DNA from: Actinomycetospora soli
GTDB lineage: Bacteria > Actinomycetota > Actinomycetes > Mycobacteriales > Pseudonocardiaceae
Assembly: GCF_021026295.1 (NCBI RefSeq)
Contig: NZ_JAJNDA010000001.1
Span: forward strand, 434,001 to 498,000
Direction of reading: 5' to 3'
Length of the DNA: 64,000 nt
Position 1 is the stretch's first letter; the number at the start of each line of letters is the position of its first letter. Made by a program: the position numbers and the translations under genes. The notes below the pieces were generated by a model. It had not been told where the DNA came from, did not search any database, and worked only from the letters and a program-made list of their open reading frames with translations. This document shows positions 8,158 through 15,347 of the stretch, one piece after another.

Positions 8158-8766
8158 ATGAGTGAGACTCGACGCATGACCGGCGAATCTCTCCGCGTCG
8201 AGTTCCGGCGCCAGGTGCGCGAGCGCGTGCTCGACACCGCGGCCACGCTGGCCGTCGAGCACGGGTGGGACCGCGTGCGCATCGGGGAGGTCGCGACCGC
8301 CTCGGGGGTGTCCCGACCCACCCTCTACCGGGAGTTCGGCACGAAGGACGGCGTCGGCGAGGCCCTGGTGGCGCGCGAGGCCGAGCGCTTCTTCAGCGGG
8401 ATCGGCTCGGTCCTCGAGAACAGCGCGGACGTCCCGGACGGGGTCCGCGCGTCGGTCCGGTTCACCCTCGACGAGGCCGCGGACAACCCGCTGCTGCGCG
8501 CCATCCTCACCGGCAGCCGCAGCGGCGACACCGGACTGCTGCCCTTCCTGACGACCCGCGGCGACGCGATCATCGCCGGCGGCTCCGGCCTCGTCGGCGA
8601 GTGGGTCCGGCGGCGCCTGCCGGAGGTGGACGGGCGGGTCGTCGACGACGCCGTCGACGCGATCGTCCGCCTCACCATCAGCCACCTCGTCTCCCCCGGA
8701 CTCGGCCACGCGGAGGCCTCCGACCGCCTCGCCCGGATCGCGAGCTGCCTGCTCTGCCTCTCGTGA
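8158..8766 (+). CDS. TetR-family transcriptional regulator
   Basis: This is a 202-residue regulator. The N-terminal domain contains RIGEVATASGVSRPTLYREFGTK in pieces typical of TetR recognition helices (about residues 40-62), and an all-helical ligand domain follows. It lies just upstream of a NIPSNAP-family gene on the same strand (28-base gap) and divergent from the anchored-protein gene, so either may be its target. The ATG follows SNMSxxx-like spacing with only a weak ribosome site. A second ATG lies six codons downstream. Confidence 0.85.
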   Translation: MSETRRMTGESLRVEFRRQVRERVLDTAATLAVEHGWDRVRIGEVATASGVSRPTLYREFGTKDGVGEALVAREAERFFSGIGSVLENSADVPDGVRASVRFTLDEAADNPLLRAILTGSRSGDTGLLPFLTTRGDAIIAGGSGLVGEWVRRRLPEVDGRVVDDAVDAIVRLTISHLVSPGLGHAEASDRLARIASCLLCLS

Positions 8767-9486: not shown

Positions 9487-9540
9487 AGCGCGACACGCTG
9501 TCACAGTTACCGGTGTACGGGGAGCGTGAGGAGACCGACG

Positions 9541-10710
9541 ATGACCATCGAGCAGGCACGAGAGCCCGAGCTGAACGACCAGGAACCGTGGCGCGACAAG
9601 CGCCGCTACCTGTGGCCGCTGGGCACCGTGATGCCCGCCCTGCCGATCGCCGGCTACGGCCTCGTCCACGCGACGGGCCTGAGCCTGTTCTGGTGGATCG
9701 GCCCGATCATCCTGTTCGTGGTGCTGCCGGCGCTGGACCTGCTGATCGGCAAGACGGACGACAACCCGCCCGAGTCCGAGCGGGCCCGCCTGGAGGCGGA
9801 CCGGTACTACCGGTGGATCACCTACCTGTTCCTGCCGGTGCAGTACGTCAGCCTCGTCTTCACCTGCTGGGTGTGGGCCACGCAGGACCTGCCCTGGTAC
9901 AGCGACCTGGGGCTCGCCCTGACGATGGGCATCGTCTCGGGAATCGCCATCAACACCGCGCACGAGCTCGGGCACAAGCGCGAGGAGAACGAGCGCTGGC
10001 TCTCGAAGATCGCGCTGGCCACCTCGGCCTACGGCCACTTCTACGTGGAGCACAACCGCGGCCACCACGTGCGGGTCGCGACCCCCGAGGACCCGGCGAG
10101 CTCGCGTCTCGGGGAGAACTTCTGGCTGAGCTTCCTGCCGCGCAGCGTCTGGGGCTCCCTGACGAGTTCGTGGCACCTGGAGAAGAAGCGTTTCGCGCGG
10201 CACGACAAGAGCCACTGGACCTGGCGCAACGACATCCTGATCGCGTGGGCGATGACGATCGTCCTGTTCGGCGCGCTCGTCGCCGTGTTCGGCCCGACCG
10301 TCCTGCCGTGGCTGCTGCTGCAGGCGTTCGTCGGATTCAGCCTGCTCGAGGTCGTGAACTACCTGGAGCACTACGGCCTCAAGCGGCAGCGACGTGACGA
10401 CGGCCGGTACGAGCGGGTCGACCCGCGCCATTCCTGGAATGCCGACCACACGGTGTCGAACCTGCTGCTCTACCAGCTGCAGCGCCATTCCGACCACCAC
10501 GCGAACCCGATCCGCCGCTACCAGACGCTGCGCCACTTCGAGGAGTCGCCGCAGCTGCCCAGCGGCTACGGGACGATGATCGTCGTCGCCGTGATCCCGC
10601 CGCTCTGGCGCGCGATCATGGACCCGAAGGTGAAGGCGCACTACGACGGCGACCTCGAACTCGCGAACGTGCTGCCCCGCAAGCGCGCCCGCTACGGCCT
10701 CAGCGCCTGA
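9541..10710 (+). CDS. alkB: Alkane 1-monooxygenase AlkB
   Basis: This is a 389-residue integral-membrane non-heme di-iron monooxygenase that hydroxylates the terminal carbon of n-alkanes. The three histidine boxes are visible: HELGH (141-145), HNRGHH (171-176) and HSDHH (316-320). The signature NYLEHYGL precedes the third box, and hydrophobic segments flank residues 34-66, 92-113 and 120-140. There is no C-terminal rubredoxin fusion, and no rubredoxin or rubredoxin-reductase gene follows, unlike most actinobacterial alkB loci, so electron partners must be encoded elsewhere. The 3' end overlaps a convergent TetR gene by 19 bases. Confidence 0.93.
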   Translation: MTIEQAREPELNDQEPWRDKRRYLWPLGTVMPALPIAGYGLVHATGLSLFWWIGPIILFVVLPALDLLIGKTDDNPPESERARLEADRYYRWITYLFLPVQYVSLVFTCWVWATQDLPWYSDLGLALTMGIVSGIAINTAHELGHKREENERWLSKIALATSAYGHFYVEHNRGHHVRVATPEDPASSRLGENFWLSFLPRSVWGSLTSSWHLEKKRFARHDKSHWTWRNDILIAWAMTIVLFGALVAVFGPTVLPWLLLQAFVGFSLLEVVNYLEHYGLKRQRRDDGRYERVDPRHSWNADHTVSNLLLYQLQRHSDHHANPIRRYQTLRHFEESPQLPSGYGTMIVVAVIPPLWRAIMDPKVKAHYDGDLELANVLPRKRARYGLSA

Positions 10711-11282
10711 TCCTTGCCCAGGAGCTTCCCGACGAGGGCCCGTACCCGGCTGCCGGGTGCGGGCCCGTCGTCGTCCCGGCCCGCCGGCTCGAACAGCGCG
10801 GTGTAGTAGATCGGCGCGAGGAGCCCGTCGACCACCGCGTCGAGCTCGGGCACCGCTCCCCCGCGGGCGGTCTCCCGCTCGAGGATCGCCGCGATCTGGG
10901 TGCGGCGGTCGGCGGTGCAGGCGCACGACGCGGTCTCCCCGGCGCCGATCGAGGCGCGCATGAGGGCGATGGTGTCCGGGTCGGCGAGGTCGCGCGCGAC
11001 GTCGGTGGCCCAGCGCTCGAGGTCCGCGCCGAGACCGCCCGTGTCGGGCACGACCACGTCCCCGGTGAACCGGTGCTCCGCCACCGAGGCGATCAGCTCC
11101 GCCACCGACCCCCAGCGCCGGTAGACCGTCGTCGCGTGCACCCCGGCGCGCGCCGCGATCACCGGGATCGTCAGGTCCTCGGTCCGCACGCCCTCGGCCA
11201 CGAGGTCCTCGACCGCCCGGTGCACCGACGCCCGCACCCGCGCGGACCGACCACCCGGCCGCGACCCACTCGCCTCGCTCAT
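10692..11282 (-). CDS. TetR-family regulator divergent from an MFS exporter
   Basis: This 196-residue protein has an N-terminal TetR helix-turn-helix (about VIAARAGVHATTVYRRWGS, residues 40-58). It has a C-terminal domain of the TetR_C_11/C_16 kind (DLADPDTIALMRASIGAG). Two cysteines in ASCACTAD may matter for sensing, but this is speculation. It is divergent from the MFS gene across 52 bases that hold two copies of a likely operator. It is therefore probably the repressor of that exporter and of itself, while also being convergent with alkB. Confidence 0.88.
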   Translation of the reverse strand: MSEASGSRPGGRSARVRASVHRAVEDLVAEGVRTEDLTIPVIAARAGVHATTVYRRWGSVAELIASVAEHRFTGDVVVPDTGGLGADLERWATDVARDLADPDTIALMRASIGAGETASCACTADRRTQIAAILERETARGGAVPELDAVVDGLLAPIYYTALFEPAGRDDDGPAPGSRVRALVGKLLGKDQALRP

Positions 11283-11294
11283 GCCCCGATACTA

Positions 11295-11358
11295 ACGCAG
11301 CGATCTTTGCTGAACTCGTGCTAGCGTCGCCCTCGTGCAAACGCAGCGATCTGTGCGT
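11295..11358. promoter_or_regulatory. Paired operator copies between TetR and MFS genes
   Basis: ACGCAGCGATCTTTGC (11295-11310) and ACGCAGCGATCTGTGCGT (11341-11358) are direct copies 46 bases apart. The second is palindromic around GATC with ACGCA/TGCGT arms. The first lies just upstream of the TetR start, and the second overlaps the first codons of the MFS gene. This layout fits repression of both genes by the TetR product. Confidence 0.65.
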
Positions 11359-12564
11359 AGCGAGGACCGGACCCGCGCGCGGCTGTTCGCGGCCGTCGGC
11401 GGGATCGTCGTGCTGTTCCCGGCCGCCTCCAGCGTGCCGAGCCCGTTGTACCCCGTCTACCAGCAGCTCTTCGGGTTCTCGGCCGCGACGCTGACCGTCG
11501 TCTTCGCGGTCTACGTCCTCGGCCTCCTGGGTGCGCTCCTCGTCGTGGGCGCGCTCTCCGACCACGTCGGACGCCGCCCGGTCCTCGCCGGGGCGATCGC
11601 CCTCGAGGCCGTCTCCTTCGTCGTCTTCCTGACGGCGGGCGGGGTCCCGGCACTGCTCGTCGCGCGCCTGCTGCAGGGCATCGCGACCGGGGCCGCGATC
11701 ACGACCCTCGGTGCCACCATGGTCGATCTCGCCCCGCGCGAGGCCCCGCACCGCGCCGGGATGGTCACCGGCGTCGGCACGCTCGCCGGGCTCGCCGCCG
11801 GGGCGGTCGGCGCCGGCGCTCTCGTCCAGCTCGCCCCTGCCCCGACCCGGCTCGTCTGGGTCGTCCTGCTCGTCCTGCTCGCGCTCTCCGCCGTCGTGGT
11901 GGCCGTCCTCCCCGAGACCTCCACGCGGCGCGCCGGGGGGTGGGCGTCCCTGGTGCCCCGGGTGGGCGTGGCGCCGCGGCTCCGCGGTGAGGTCCTGGCA
12001 CTGACGCCGGTCCTGATCACGAGCTGGGCCCTCGGCGGGCTCTACCTCTCGCTCGGGCCGTCGATCGCGTCGACGCTGCTCGGGGTGCAGTCGCGGCTCG
12101 TCGGCGGGCTGGTCGTCACCCTGCTCTGCGGCACCGGCGCCGTGGCCTCCTACCTGCTGCGGGGGCGCCCCGTCCGCTCCCTGGTCGCCCCGGCCGCCGG
12201 GCTCCTCGCGGCCGGGACCGCCGTCACGCTGCTCGGCGTCGCGCTGGTGTCCGTGCCCGTGGCCGGACTCGGCACCGTGCTCGCGGGGGTCGGGTTCGGC
12301 GCCGCCGCACTGGCCTGCTTCGGGGTGTTCGCCGAGATCGCGGCCCCGGACGAGCGCGGCGAACTGTTCGCGACCTTCTACGTCATCTCCTACACGGCCT
12401 TCTCCGTGCCCGCCGTCCTCGCGGGGATCGGCAGCGGAATGGTCGGACTCGCGACCGCCGCGGAGGTCTACGGCGGCGTCGTCGTGGCGCTCGGAGCGAC
12501 CGCGACGGTGATCAACCTGGTGCACGCCCGCCGTCGTCGTCCCGCCTTGACAACCGCAGCCTGA
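11335..12564 (+). CDS. MFS transporter, probable drug exporter
   Basis: This is a 409-residue protein of the major facilitator superfamily with about twelve hydrophobic segments. Motif A reads GALSDHVGRRPVL between helices 2 and 3, and the helix-4/5 region carries RLLQGIATGAAITTLGATM, as in proton-driven exporters. The GTG start at 11335 is chosen because the helix-turn-helix-like first 20 residues are short and basic before the first helix. An operator copy lies over these first codons. The substrate is unknown. Confidence 0.85.
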   Translation: MQTQRSVRSEDRTRARLFAAVGGIVVLFPAASSVPSPLYPVYQQLFGFSAATLTVVFAVYVLGLLGALLVVGALSDHVGRRPVLAGAIALEAVSFVVFLTAGGVPALLVARLLQGIATGAAITTLGATMVDLAPREAPHRAGMVTGVGTLAGLAAGAVGAGALVQLAPAPTRLVWVVLLVLLALSAVVVAVLPETSTRRAGGWASLVPRVGVAPRLRGEVLALTPVLITSWALGGLYLSLGPSIASTLLGVQSRLVGGLVVTLLCGTGAVASYLLRGRPVRSLVAPAAGLLAAGTAVTLLGVALVSVPVAGLGTVLAGVGFGAAALACFGVFAEIAAPDERGELFATFYVISYTAFSVPAVLAGIGSGMVGLATAAEVYGGVVVALGATATVINLVHARRRRPALTTAA

Positions 12565-12768
12565 GTAGATTCTGAGAAGGTCCGCCCTTGACGGCTCTGT
12601 GGTTCCGGGGCCGGTTCCTTGACCGAATGATTGATGCATTCACAGACATGTGCGCATCACACGATCGGGGGACAGCTCACGCACAGCTCGTTCACAGGTC
12701 GTGATCCGATCGTGACCGGGCCTCACCGACCGGCGAGGCGATGGTTCCTTCCCCCGAGAGGATCGATC

Positions 12769-12909
12769 ATGGGCTTCTTCCTGCTGGACGGCTGCGCTCC
12801 CCCGAAGCACCGCCACCACCACCACCGTGGGTGCGGCTGCCACGAGTGCAAGCCGCAGCACTGTGAGCCGAAGCGCGAGTGCAAGCCGAAGCACTGCTGC
12901 GACGACTGA
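12769..12909 (+). CDS. 46-residue Cys/His-rich protein, likely metal-binding
   Basis: The ATG at 12769 follows a purine-rich site (CGAGAGGATCG). The product has 8 Cys (9, 22, 24, 27, 32, 38, 43, 44) and 8 His (14, 16-19, 25, 31, 42) in 46 residues, more than a third of its length. The second half repeats a CKPxHC-like unit: CKPQHCEPK then CKPKHCC. This recalls metallothioneins or metal-storage peptides, and zinc or copper binding is inferred from composition. An in-frame start at 12631 is possible, but that extension lacks the cysteine pattern. It stands alone, with 204 bases upstream holding possible promoter elements (TTGACG near 12588) and nothing else recognised. Confidence 0.7.
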   Translation: MGFFLLDGCAPPKHRHHHHRGCGCHECKPQHCEPKRECKPKHCCDD

Positions 12910-13013
12910 CGTCGTCCACGGCGCCGCGGCCCTGACCGGGTCGGGCGCCGGACACCGCGGCCGGTGACCCGTCACGGGTCACCGGCCGTTTCCGAGCACG
13001 GACGAGGGAGACG

Positions 13014-15347
13014 GTGGGCGCGCACTCGACGTCGGGGGACCAGCAGGACGGCACCGCCGAGGCGGCCGCCGGCGCGCCCGCCCTCACCCTCCGCGCGATC
13101 GTCCGCCGGTTCTGGACCTACACGCGCGGCGACCGCCCGGAGCTGGTCCTCGCCTTCGCGTTCATGGCCGCGTCGACGGCCTGCGACACCTACGTGGTCA
13201 CGATGTTCGCCCGCATCGTCGACGGCGCCACCGTGGCCCGGTCGATGTCGGCGGTGTGGCCCTCCGCCGTGGAGTGGATGGTCCTCACGGCCGTGGGCGG
13301 CCTGCTCTCGGTGATCGGCGGTTGGCTGATGGTCGGCGCCGCGGAACGCTTCGTCTTCCGGCTGCGCCACCAGGTCTTCGCCCACCTGCAGCGGCTCGGG
13401 CCGTCCTTCTTCTCGCAGCACGCGACCGGGGACCTGATCTCGCGGCTCTCCACCGACATCGACGGGGTCGAGGCCCTCGCCTCCTCCGGCATCGTCACGA
13501 CGATCATCGCGGTCGGCACCGCGATCGCCTACGCCGTGGCCGCGGTCCTGGTGCAGTGGCAGCTCGCCGTCATCGTCGTCGCCCTCGCGCCGCTGATGTG
13601 GCTGACCAGCCGGATCACCGGGCGGTTCACGCGGTCCGCCGCGCGCACCGAGCGGGCCGCGGCCGGCGAGGTCGGCACGTCCATCCAGCAGTCCCTGCAG
13701 AACCTCCCGCTGGTGCAGTCGCTCGGCACCGAGGCGGTCGAGAGCGCGCGGCTGGACCACCACGGCGAGGTGTGGTGGCGGGCCCGCGCCCGCGAGAGCC
13801 GTCTGCAGATGATCTACGCGCCGATCTCCACCATCATCCAGAGCGGCGCGCTGCTCGCCGTCCTGATCGCGGGCGCCGCCTTCATCGCGGCGGGCGAGCT
13901 GACCGTCGGCGGCCTGTTCGGCTTCGCCGCCTACCTCGGCTACCTCTACCCGCCGCTCTCGCAGCTGGGCTCGCTGCACCTGACCGTGACCTCCGCGTCG
14001 GCCTCCTGCGAGCGGCTGCTCGACATCCTCGGCGCCGACCCCGACGTGGTCGACGCCGAGGACGCCGACGACTCCCCCGTCACGCACGGCCGGGTGCAGC
14101 TGCGGGACGTCCGGTACGTCTACCCCGGCACCGGGTCCGCCGGCGTCGACGGGGTGTCGCTCGACGTGCAGCCGGGGCAGTTCGTGCTGGTCACCGGCCC
14201 GAGCGGGGCCGGGAAGTCCACGCTGACGAGGCTGCTGCTGCGCTTCGTCGACGTCCAGTCCGGCGCGATCACCCTCGACGGCGTGGACGTGCGGGACCGC
14301 GCGATCGCCGCGGTGCGCGCCGCGGTCACGCTGCTGCCGCAGAAGCCGATGCTCTTCGACCTCACCGTCCGGGAGAACATCGCCTACGCCCGCCCGGACG
14401 CGGACGACGCCGAGATCGTGGCGGCCGCCCGCGAGGCCGGGGCGCTCGAGTTCATCCGGGACCTGCCGGACGGCTTCGACACGCTCGTCGGCGAGGACGG
14501 CGCCACCCTGTCCGGCGGCCAACGTCAGCGGCTCGCGATCGCGCGGGCCCTGCTGCGCACCTCCCCGGTCCTGGTCCTCGACGAACCGACCACCGGTCTC
14601 GACGCGCCCACCGCCCGCGCCGTGCTCGACCCCCTGCGCCGGCTCTCCGGCGGTCGGACGACGATCGTCGTCAGCCACGACCTCACGCCCGCCCGCGACG
14701 CCGACCTCGTCGTCGTCCTCGACGCCGGCCGCGTCGTGGCGCAGGGCCGCCACGCCGAGCTCCTCGCCCGCCCCGGGGTCTACGCCGACCTGTGGGCCGC
14801 GCAGCAGGGCGACCGTCCCGACGCCGAGCCGGTCCCGGTCCCGGTCCCGGCCGCCCGCCCGGTGCCGCCCCGTCGGCCGCAGCCCGTGCCGGCGTTCGTC
14901 GACGCCACGACCAACCCGCTGCGCCTGCTCGCCCTCGCCGCCGCCGACGCCGCGATCTCCGCCTCCGCCGCGACCACCCGGCCGACGGCCCTGCACTCCC
15001 GTGCCGGCAGTGCGTCACGGCGTGCACCCGGTGACAAGGAACCCGGCACCGTCGCCCCGGCCGCGACCGCTCCGCCCGCCGGCCGCGGCGCCCGCCAAGC
15101 CCCGGCGCCCGCCGCCGTGCGGTCGCCGACCGCCCGCCCCACGCCCGCCCCCCGCCGGACGCTCGTGCCCGGGCCGCGGGACCCGGCGTCGGGACCGACC
15201 CCGGCGAACCGGCCGCACCCGCCGTCGGGACCATCCCGGCACGACACCGGGCCGCGGCGGCGCACCGTCGCCGACCTCGTCAGCGACGTCCCGGCCGGCC
15301 GCGCCGCCCACCGGCAGCCGGACGCGGACACCGCTCGTCCACGCTGA
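13014..15347 (+). CDS. ABC exporter half-transporter with a long disordered C-terminal tail
   Basis: This 777-residue fused permease/ATPase has a type-1 exporter membrane domain (about residues 40-335, six helices). Its nucleotide-binding domain (about 358-595) carries Walker A GPSGAGKST (395-403), the signature LSGGQRQRLAIARAL and Walker B VLVLDEPTT. Such proteins export lipids, peptides or drugs as homo- or heterodimers; no second half-transporter is adjacent. Unusually, about 180 residues follow the ATPase, rich in Pro, Ala, Arg and Thr and probably disordered. It begins with GTG after a GAGGGAG ribosome site. The substrate is unknown. Confidence 0.88.
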   Translation: MGAHSTSGDQQDGTAEAAAGAPALTLRAIVRRFWTYTRGDRPELVLAFAFMAASTACDTYVVTMFARIVDGATVARSMSAVWPSAVEWMVLTAVGGLLSVIGGWLMVGAAERFVFRLRHQVFAHLQRLGPSFFSQHATGDLISRLSTDIDGVEALASSGIVTTIIAVGTAIAYAVAAVLVQWQLAVIVVALAPLMWLTSRITGRFTRSAARTERAAAGEVGTSIQQSLQNLPLVQSLGTEAVESARLDHHGEVWWRARARESRLQMIYAPISTIIQSGALLAVLIAGAAFIAAGELTVGGLFGFAAYLGYLYPPLSQLGSLHLTVTSASASCERLLDILGADPDVVDAEDADDSPVTHGRVQLRDVRYVYPGTGSAGVDGVSLDVQPGQFVLVTGPSGAGKSTLTRLLLRFVDVQSGAITLDGVDVRDRAIAAVRAAVTLLPQKPMLFDLTVRENIAYARPDADDAEIVAAAREAGALEFIRDLPDGFDTLVGEDGATLSGGQRQRLAIARALLRTSPVLVLDEPTTGLDAPTARAVLDPLRRLSGGRTTIVVSHDLTPARDADLVVVLDAGRVVAQGRHAELLARPGVYADLWAAQQGDRPDAEPVPVPVPAARPVPPRRPQPVPAFVDATTNPLRLLALAAADAAISASAATTRPTALHSRAGSASRRAPGDKEPGTVAPAATAPPAGRGARQAPAPAAVRSPTARPTPAPRRTLVPGPRDPASGPTPANRPHPPSGPSRHDTGPRRRTVADLVSDVPAGRAAHRQPDADTARPR

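Follow-up and report, generated by a model that had tools for sequence, protein, structure and literature searches.

The window analysed here, a 64-kb stretch of the Actinomycetospora soli genome, contains a very short reading frame that is dense in Cys and His codons, which raises the questions of whether this frame is a gene and what its product could do. A first-pass annotation had read it as a real, very small metal-binding protein, possibly a new type of metallothionein, with a ribosome site, a clear start and a CKPxHC repeat, standing between a transporter gene and an ABC exporter gene.

A small Cys/His-rich gene conserved at the protein level

Translation of 12769–12909 confirmed a protein of 46 residues with 8 Cys and 8 His, read from an ATG at 12769 to a TGA that ends at 12909. 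The protein (MGFFLLDGCAPPKHRHHHHRGCGCHECKPQHCEPKRECKPKHCCDD) carries the repeat as two units, CKPQHC at residues 27–32 and CKPKHC at residues 38–43, and the ribosome site and the start codon were recovered as well (Table 1). Besides His, F3 and F4 are the only aromatic residues, and at 46 residues with 8 Cys the protein has the small size, the Cys-richness and the scarcity of aromatics that mark metallothioneins broadly defined. A longer frame starting with TTG at 12631 is not favoured, because the conserved Shine-Dalgarno-like site directly precedes 12769 and because the upstream stretch holds a palindrome and, in the G002:C2 copy, a 1-nt length difference about 30 nt 5' of the start. AlphaFold, run with 7 sequences, predicted no fold for the metal-free peptide (mean pLDDT 45.6, pTM 0.14), a result that a shallow alignment alone could cause. 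A metal-free metallothionein is expected to have no fold.

Table 1. Coordinates of the peptide gene and of its surrounding features in the window
Feature	Position	Strand	Remark
MFS transporter gene	11335..12564	+	flanks the peptide gene upstream
Three CACAGC-like 7-bp units in 11-bp steps, resembling PhoP-type direct repeats	12670..12698	+	lead only
Imperfect palindrome CCTCACCGACCGGCGAGG, candidate operator or 5'-UTR hairpin	12721..12738	.	in the other five syntenic copies
Shine-Dalgarno-like GAGAGGA, 6 nt 5' of ATG	12756..12762	+	GAGAGGA in 7/8 copies, GGAAGGA in G002:C10
Cys/His-rich protein gene, 46 aa	12769..12909	+	by translation, stop included; 8 copies in 6/18 genus genomes
Invariant core HHHxxCxCHxCKP, residues 17–29	12817..12855	+	ligands, K28 and P29 invariant in 8/8 rows
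Terminator-like hairpin, perfect 14-bp arms, then TTT	12958..12991	+	a scan requiring 5 T finds none
MsbA/ABCB-like ABC exporter gene	13014..15347	+	present in exactly the peptide-bearing genomes

The genus set consisted of 18 Actinomycetospora genomes, including that of the window. The search of this set ran to E 10, a limit so permissive that each of the 18 genomes yields some match, and a listing as such carries no weight. Eight homologous places were found in 6 of the 18 genomes, all at E 3.2e-8 or better, and the next listed match was at E 0.0237. A DNA match on G000:C69 (L003) was rejected as a further copy, as it holds no frame meeting the Cys/His cut-off. The homologues (n=8 copies) are 62–98% identical to the window protein, and the eight proteins range over 45–48 residues, 5–9 Cys and 4–10 His. 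M1, P11, P12, H17–H19, C22, C24, H25, C27, K28, P29, C38, K41 and D45 are invariant in all eight. Eight or nine Cys are kept in seven copies. The remaining one, G002:C10 (L022, 1501–1641), has only 5 Cys and 4 His with the invariant core intact, and is a natural minimal variant. The G009:C7 copy has 5 His, and C9 is missing by position in three copies; in one of these three the next position holds a Cys.

Length differences within the gene preserve the frame between its conserved ends, in contrast to the 1-nt difference upstream of the start in G002:C2. Counted by codon position, the four closest syntenic copies show 20, 27 and 42 differences at positions 1, 2 and 3. The ratio pN/pS, which is noisy at about 25 synonymous sites per pair, was 0.63 when pooled over 28 pairs and 0.04 in the closest pair. 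As judged from these comparisons, the core is clearly constrained. Outside it the constraint is weak, as pN/pS exceeds 1 in 5 of the 28 pairs (maximum 1.46).

The frame is the sole stop-to-stop frame in the window with at least 8 Cys and at least 8 His inside 46 residues, and no comparably dense frame occurred in 60 × 64 kb of third-order Markov sequence. This uniqueness and, most decisively, the protein-level conservation in eight copies lead us to take the frame as more than chance. The comparisons thus show that the gene at 12769–12909 is real and conserved at the protein level; the proposal of a real small gene is supported by the conserved protein pattern, the Shine-Dalgarno-like site and the position, and the homologue search that the first-pass annotation had suggested did find the Cys/His spacing conserved in relatives.

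Distribution within one clade of Actinomycetospora

When two degenerate patterns were run against the genome_contigs collection, 123 matches came up and four loci among them were confirmed, all in Actinomycetospora: two copies in A. chiangmaiensis DSM 45062 (G002), one in sp. NBRC 106378 (G013) and one in sp. TBRC 11914 (G009:C7). The scan was not exhaustive, as it did not return the other four known copies. Among 297 family genomes, a profile search found 14 with a match at E ≤ 0.01. Six of them belong to the genus and carry the eight copies (E 1.5e-20 or better). In the eight genomes from outside the genus (E 3.9e-4 to 0.0092), inspection of the printed frames revealed no small gene with the CxCHxC core, and these matches were judged to be chance in GC-rich frames. 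Only two of 397 sampled order genomes matched at E ≤ 0.001, both of the genus, and the plasmid collection gave no match. Taken over the pattern scan, the 297 family genomes, the 397 order genomes and the plasmids, no credible homologue was found outside Actinomycetospora; these searches score limited first-look candidates per genome, and very diverged short relatives may escape them.

Comparison with known families was likewise negative. The window protein matched no Pfam family at E ≤ 10 and no NCBIfam family at E ≤ 1. Pfam searches with seven of the eight members gave a single chance match (Mu-conotoxin, E 3, in one member) and none to PF02069. Over its cut-off, PF02069 was found in none of the 18 genus genomes; weak matches occurred in three (best E 0.0024), and even these were absent from G000, G002, G005, G006, G009 and G013. 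The eight-row profile found no relative among the PDB sequences at E ≤ 10, the one match, at E 0.51, being to the C terminus of 3mi9_A, a chain that closes with a run of His, and the best PHROGs match had E 0.48. No description of such a Cys/His protein, or of a metallothionein in Actinomycetospora, was recognised in the literature searched, which took in only a minority of subscription journals.

An rpoB tree of 15 of the 18 genomes grouped G000, G005, G013, G002, G017, G009 and G006 with a support of 1.000. The peptide gene is present in six of these seven clade members and in none of the eight genomes outside. In the three remaining genomes, which gave no rpoB match and are only 59–84% complete, the peptide search likewise found no copy. 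As far as the searches reach, the gene is confined to one clade of Actinomycetospora.

Genomic neighbourhood

As reported, the gene does lie between a transporter and an ABC exporter. Six of the eight copies (G000, G005, G013, G002:C2, G006 and G009:C7) have this position, between the same MFS and exporter genes, and share further neighbours. The other two, G002:C10 and G009:C18, lie elsewhere in unrelated neighbourhoods, near genes for TetR, DICT, PadR, FAD-binding, GAF/SpoIIE, DUF222 and luciferase-like domains. Copies in unrelated neighbourhoods suggest that the gene works as a unit. No recognised metal-handling protein was present among the scanned neighbours (5 proteins at the window locus and 10 near the relocated copies).

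The exporter was detected at E ≤ 1e-100 in exactly the six of 18 genomes that carry the peptide, as six neighbours and two paralogues. It matches MsbA and ABCB multidrug types best, with scores under the curated cut-offs. The search for small Cys/His-rich frames near the two ABC paralogues (all of L081; the first 1600 nt of L082) gave one match, which lies inside a 343-residue frame and was rejected. The MFS gene is matched at E ≤ 1e-60 in 16 of the 18 genomes, in nine of them at only 61–64% identity, possibly at another locus. No small Cys/His-rich frame reached the cut-off 3' of the MFS matches in the 10 peptide-less genomes with an MFS match (one stretch was only 886 nt); G002 and G013, which have a second MFS match each, are outside this set. 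In G017 the MFS gene is 90% identical, the peptide and the exporter are absent, and the DNA just past the MFS stop (L061, G017:C27) reads as a fragment of the exporter ATPase domain (LSGGQ region). Both genes were plausibly lost there in one deletion.

Other features of the region were also recorded. The exporter frame extends about 170 residues beyond the ATPase domain (14840–15347) as a predicted tail rich in Pro, Arg and Ala. At 9526–10710 the window encodes a membrane protein of the fatty-acid-desaturase family (Pfam PF00487), perhaps of the AlkB type, and genes for TetR-like regulators lie near it at 8158–8766 and 10692–11282.

Candidate control elements

The DNA upstream of the gene is conserved among the syntenic copies, and parts of it persist in G002:C10 but not clearly in G009:C18. 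The palindrome shows paired changes in G002:C10 and is not clear in G009:C18. A pair of 7-bp units, stepped by 11 bp, is found at -99/-88 (within 2 nt) in all six syntenic copies, and a third in-phase unit occurs only in the window promoter, where it replaces a TTCTTATG-like stretch of the syntenic relatives. PMC4832192 describes the M. tuberculosis PhoP site as a direct repeat of the 7-bp motif TCACAGC in which the spacer is strictly 4 bp. When TCACAGC-N4-TCACAGC was tested, the window had three units (each with at most 2 mismatches), which was reached by 1 of 2000 shuffles; the five other syntenic copies had two units, reached by 75–182 of 2000 shuffles. The relocated copies had two units at another place (G002:C10) or none (G009:C18). 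Over the whole window, 5 repeat pairs with at most 3 mismatches were observed versus 5.16 by chance. A pattern derived from these promoters, with one mismatch allowed, gave 9 matches in 7 genomes, seven at the peptide gene (by construction) and two elsewhere, and its reversed control gave none. As PhoP-type sites, the upstream repeats are a lead only, and no metal-regulator site was identified for the peptide gene.

Downstream, the fold of the 120 nt past the stop was equalled by 0–4 of 200 shuffles in the six syntenic copies. In G002:C10 and G009:C18 the hairpin, taken over this whole length, is not clearly special, since 16 and 26 of 200 shuffles fold as well. A simple scan of 12540–13060 found no sigma-70-type promoter and no T-tailed terminator, the terminator rule being 5 T. 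A known RNA at the hairpin was considered and rejected: a microRNA model matched below threshold (29.8 bits versus 83), as any hairpin might by chance. On these observations, independent transcription of the peptide gene seems likely.

Proposed function and alternatives

Metal chelation is the most likely job of the product, given how many soft ligands it has, how they are spaced and that the His/Cys core is invariant. We consider it fairly probable that the gene encodes a small intracellular metal-chelating peptide, metallothionein-like in action and outside the SmtA/BmtA family (PF02069). The free-standing gene, probably a transcription unit of its own with its own regulation, would be translated into a small product that is probably cytosolic and disordered when empty. 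The peptide would chelate a thiophilic or borderline metal, with Zn, Cu(I), Ni and Cd as candidates. The main site would be formed by HHHxxCxCHxCKP, with further ligands from the more variable Cys and His towards the C terminus, so that the peptide may act as a metallothionein-like metal buffer or detoxifier. The earlier interpretation is partly supported: a possible new metallothionein type is compatible with these data and is, as a prediction, their best reading, but PF02069, the model of known prokaryotic metallothioneins, does not match. Points against the chelator are the loss of ligands in some copies, the weak constraint outside the core, and the failure to identify a metal-regulator site or, among the scanned neighbours, a recognised metal-handling protein. 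Confidence in it is slightly lower because the promoter and terminator scans were empty and the hairpins of the relocated copies are near chance.

The strongest of the rivals is a micro-protein with a single site for zinc or another metal, structural or regulatory in role, whose variable Cys and His would be incidental. The only invariant ligands are indeed those of HHHxxCxCHxC and C38, and the Cys-poor G002:C10 copy retains exactly this core; however, the 8 or 9 Cys of the other seven copies exceed the need of one site, and we regard this explanation as unlikely. The peptide could also be a partner or cargo of the adjacent exporter, either loading metal for it or being exported by it, in a two-gene unit. 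The matching distribution of the two genes and the state of G017 fit this, but roughly one gain and one loss within one clade account for the co-occurrence, and a single deletion takes out adjacent genes together. Two of the eight peptide copies lie away from the exporter, which speaks against an obligate partnership, and the multidrug-type matches of the exporter do not point to peptides or metals. Such a partnership therefore seems fairly improbable.

The order of a short Cys-rich frame, a terminator-like hairpin and a transporter gene on one strand also recalls an attenuator, in which translation of the Cys/His codons of a leader peptide would govern read-through into the exporter gene; polycysteine attenuator frames are reported in mycobacteria, by the title of a paper cited in PMC7790235. 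A leader peptide is nevertheless very unlikely here, since the spacing pattern is conserved over the length of the protein with Lys, Pro and His invariant too, two of the eight copies precede unrelated genes rather than a common downstream operon, and the hairpin has no T-rich tail by the rule of the scan. Least probable of all is a role as precursor to a RiPP or bacteriocin-like modified peptide rich in Cys. It would agree with a small Cys-rich peptide adjoining an ABC exporter, but no peptide-modifying enzyme was present among the 5 and 10 scanned neighbours, there is no evident leader, and no exporter was found in the scanned neighbourhood of the relocated copies. These rivals lose weight, to differing degrees, through the protein-level conservation and the existence of two copies at a distance from the exporter.

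The chelator could also be part of a more specific picture, which we regard as distinctly unlikely: a new class of mixed His/Cys metallothionein from one Actinomycetospora clade, controlled by a PhoP/OmpR-type regulator and tied in its fate to an exporter that removes the metal-loaded form. If true, it would combine the HHHxxCxCHxCKP core with a two-component regulator in place of a metal sensor. In any case, small Cys/His-rich genes are readily missed by annotation, and a gene limited to one clade and lacking detectable relatives would suggest new origins of metallothionein-like peptides. With its eight natural variants, the gene provides a small mixed Cys/His putative metal site that can be put to the test; one variant is poorer than the window protein by 3 Cys and 4 His.

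Comparison with known systems

One of the nearest known systems is MymT, the mycobacterial copper metallothionein. Both are small actinobacterial peptides, and metal binding by the window peptide would be the shared property. To our knowledge MymT has no His run, whereas the Actinomycetospora peptide has one; the likeness is drawn from descriptions. MymT is part of the RicR regulon and can bind as many as six Cu+ (PMC3841717). His is common in bacterial metallothioneins (PMC10612145). SmtA and BmtA (PF02069) are, like the window peptide, small bacterial proteins with Cys and His, but neither the window protein nor the seven of eight members scanned match their family.

The mycobacterial polycysteine attenuator frames are similar in that a short Cys-rich frame lies 5' of another gene (title cited in PMC7790235). 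Unlike them, the window gene has a Shine-Dalgarno-like site, a conserved protein pattern and two of eight copies in front of unrelated genes. Hpn and Hpn-like of Helicobacter are described in PMC4671568 as small, His-rich, lineage-restricted paralogues among nickel proteins. Compared by description, the Actinomycetospora peptide resembles them in its small size, its His-richness and its lineage-restricted paralogues, and differs from them in having a CxCHxC core and a Cys count equal to its His count.
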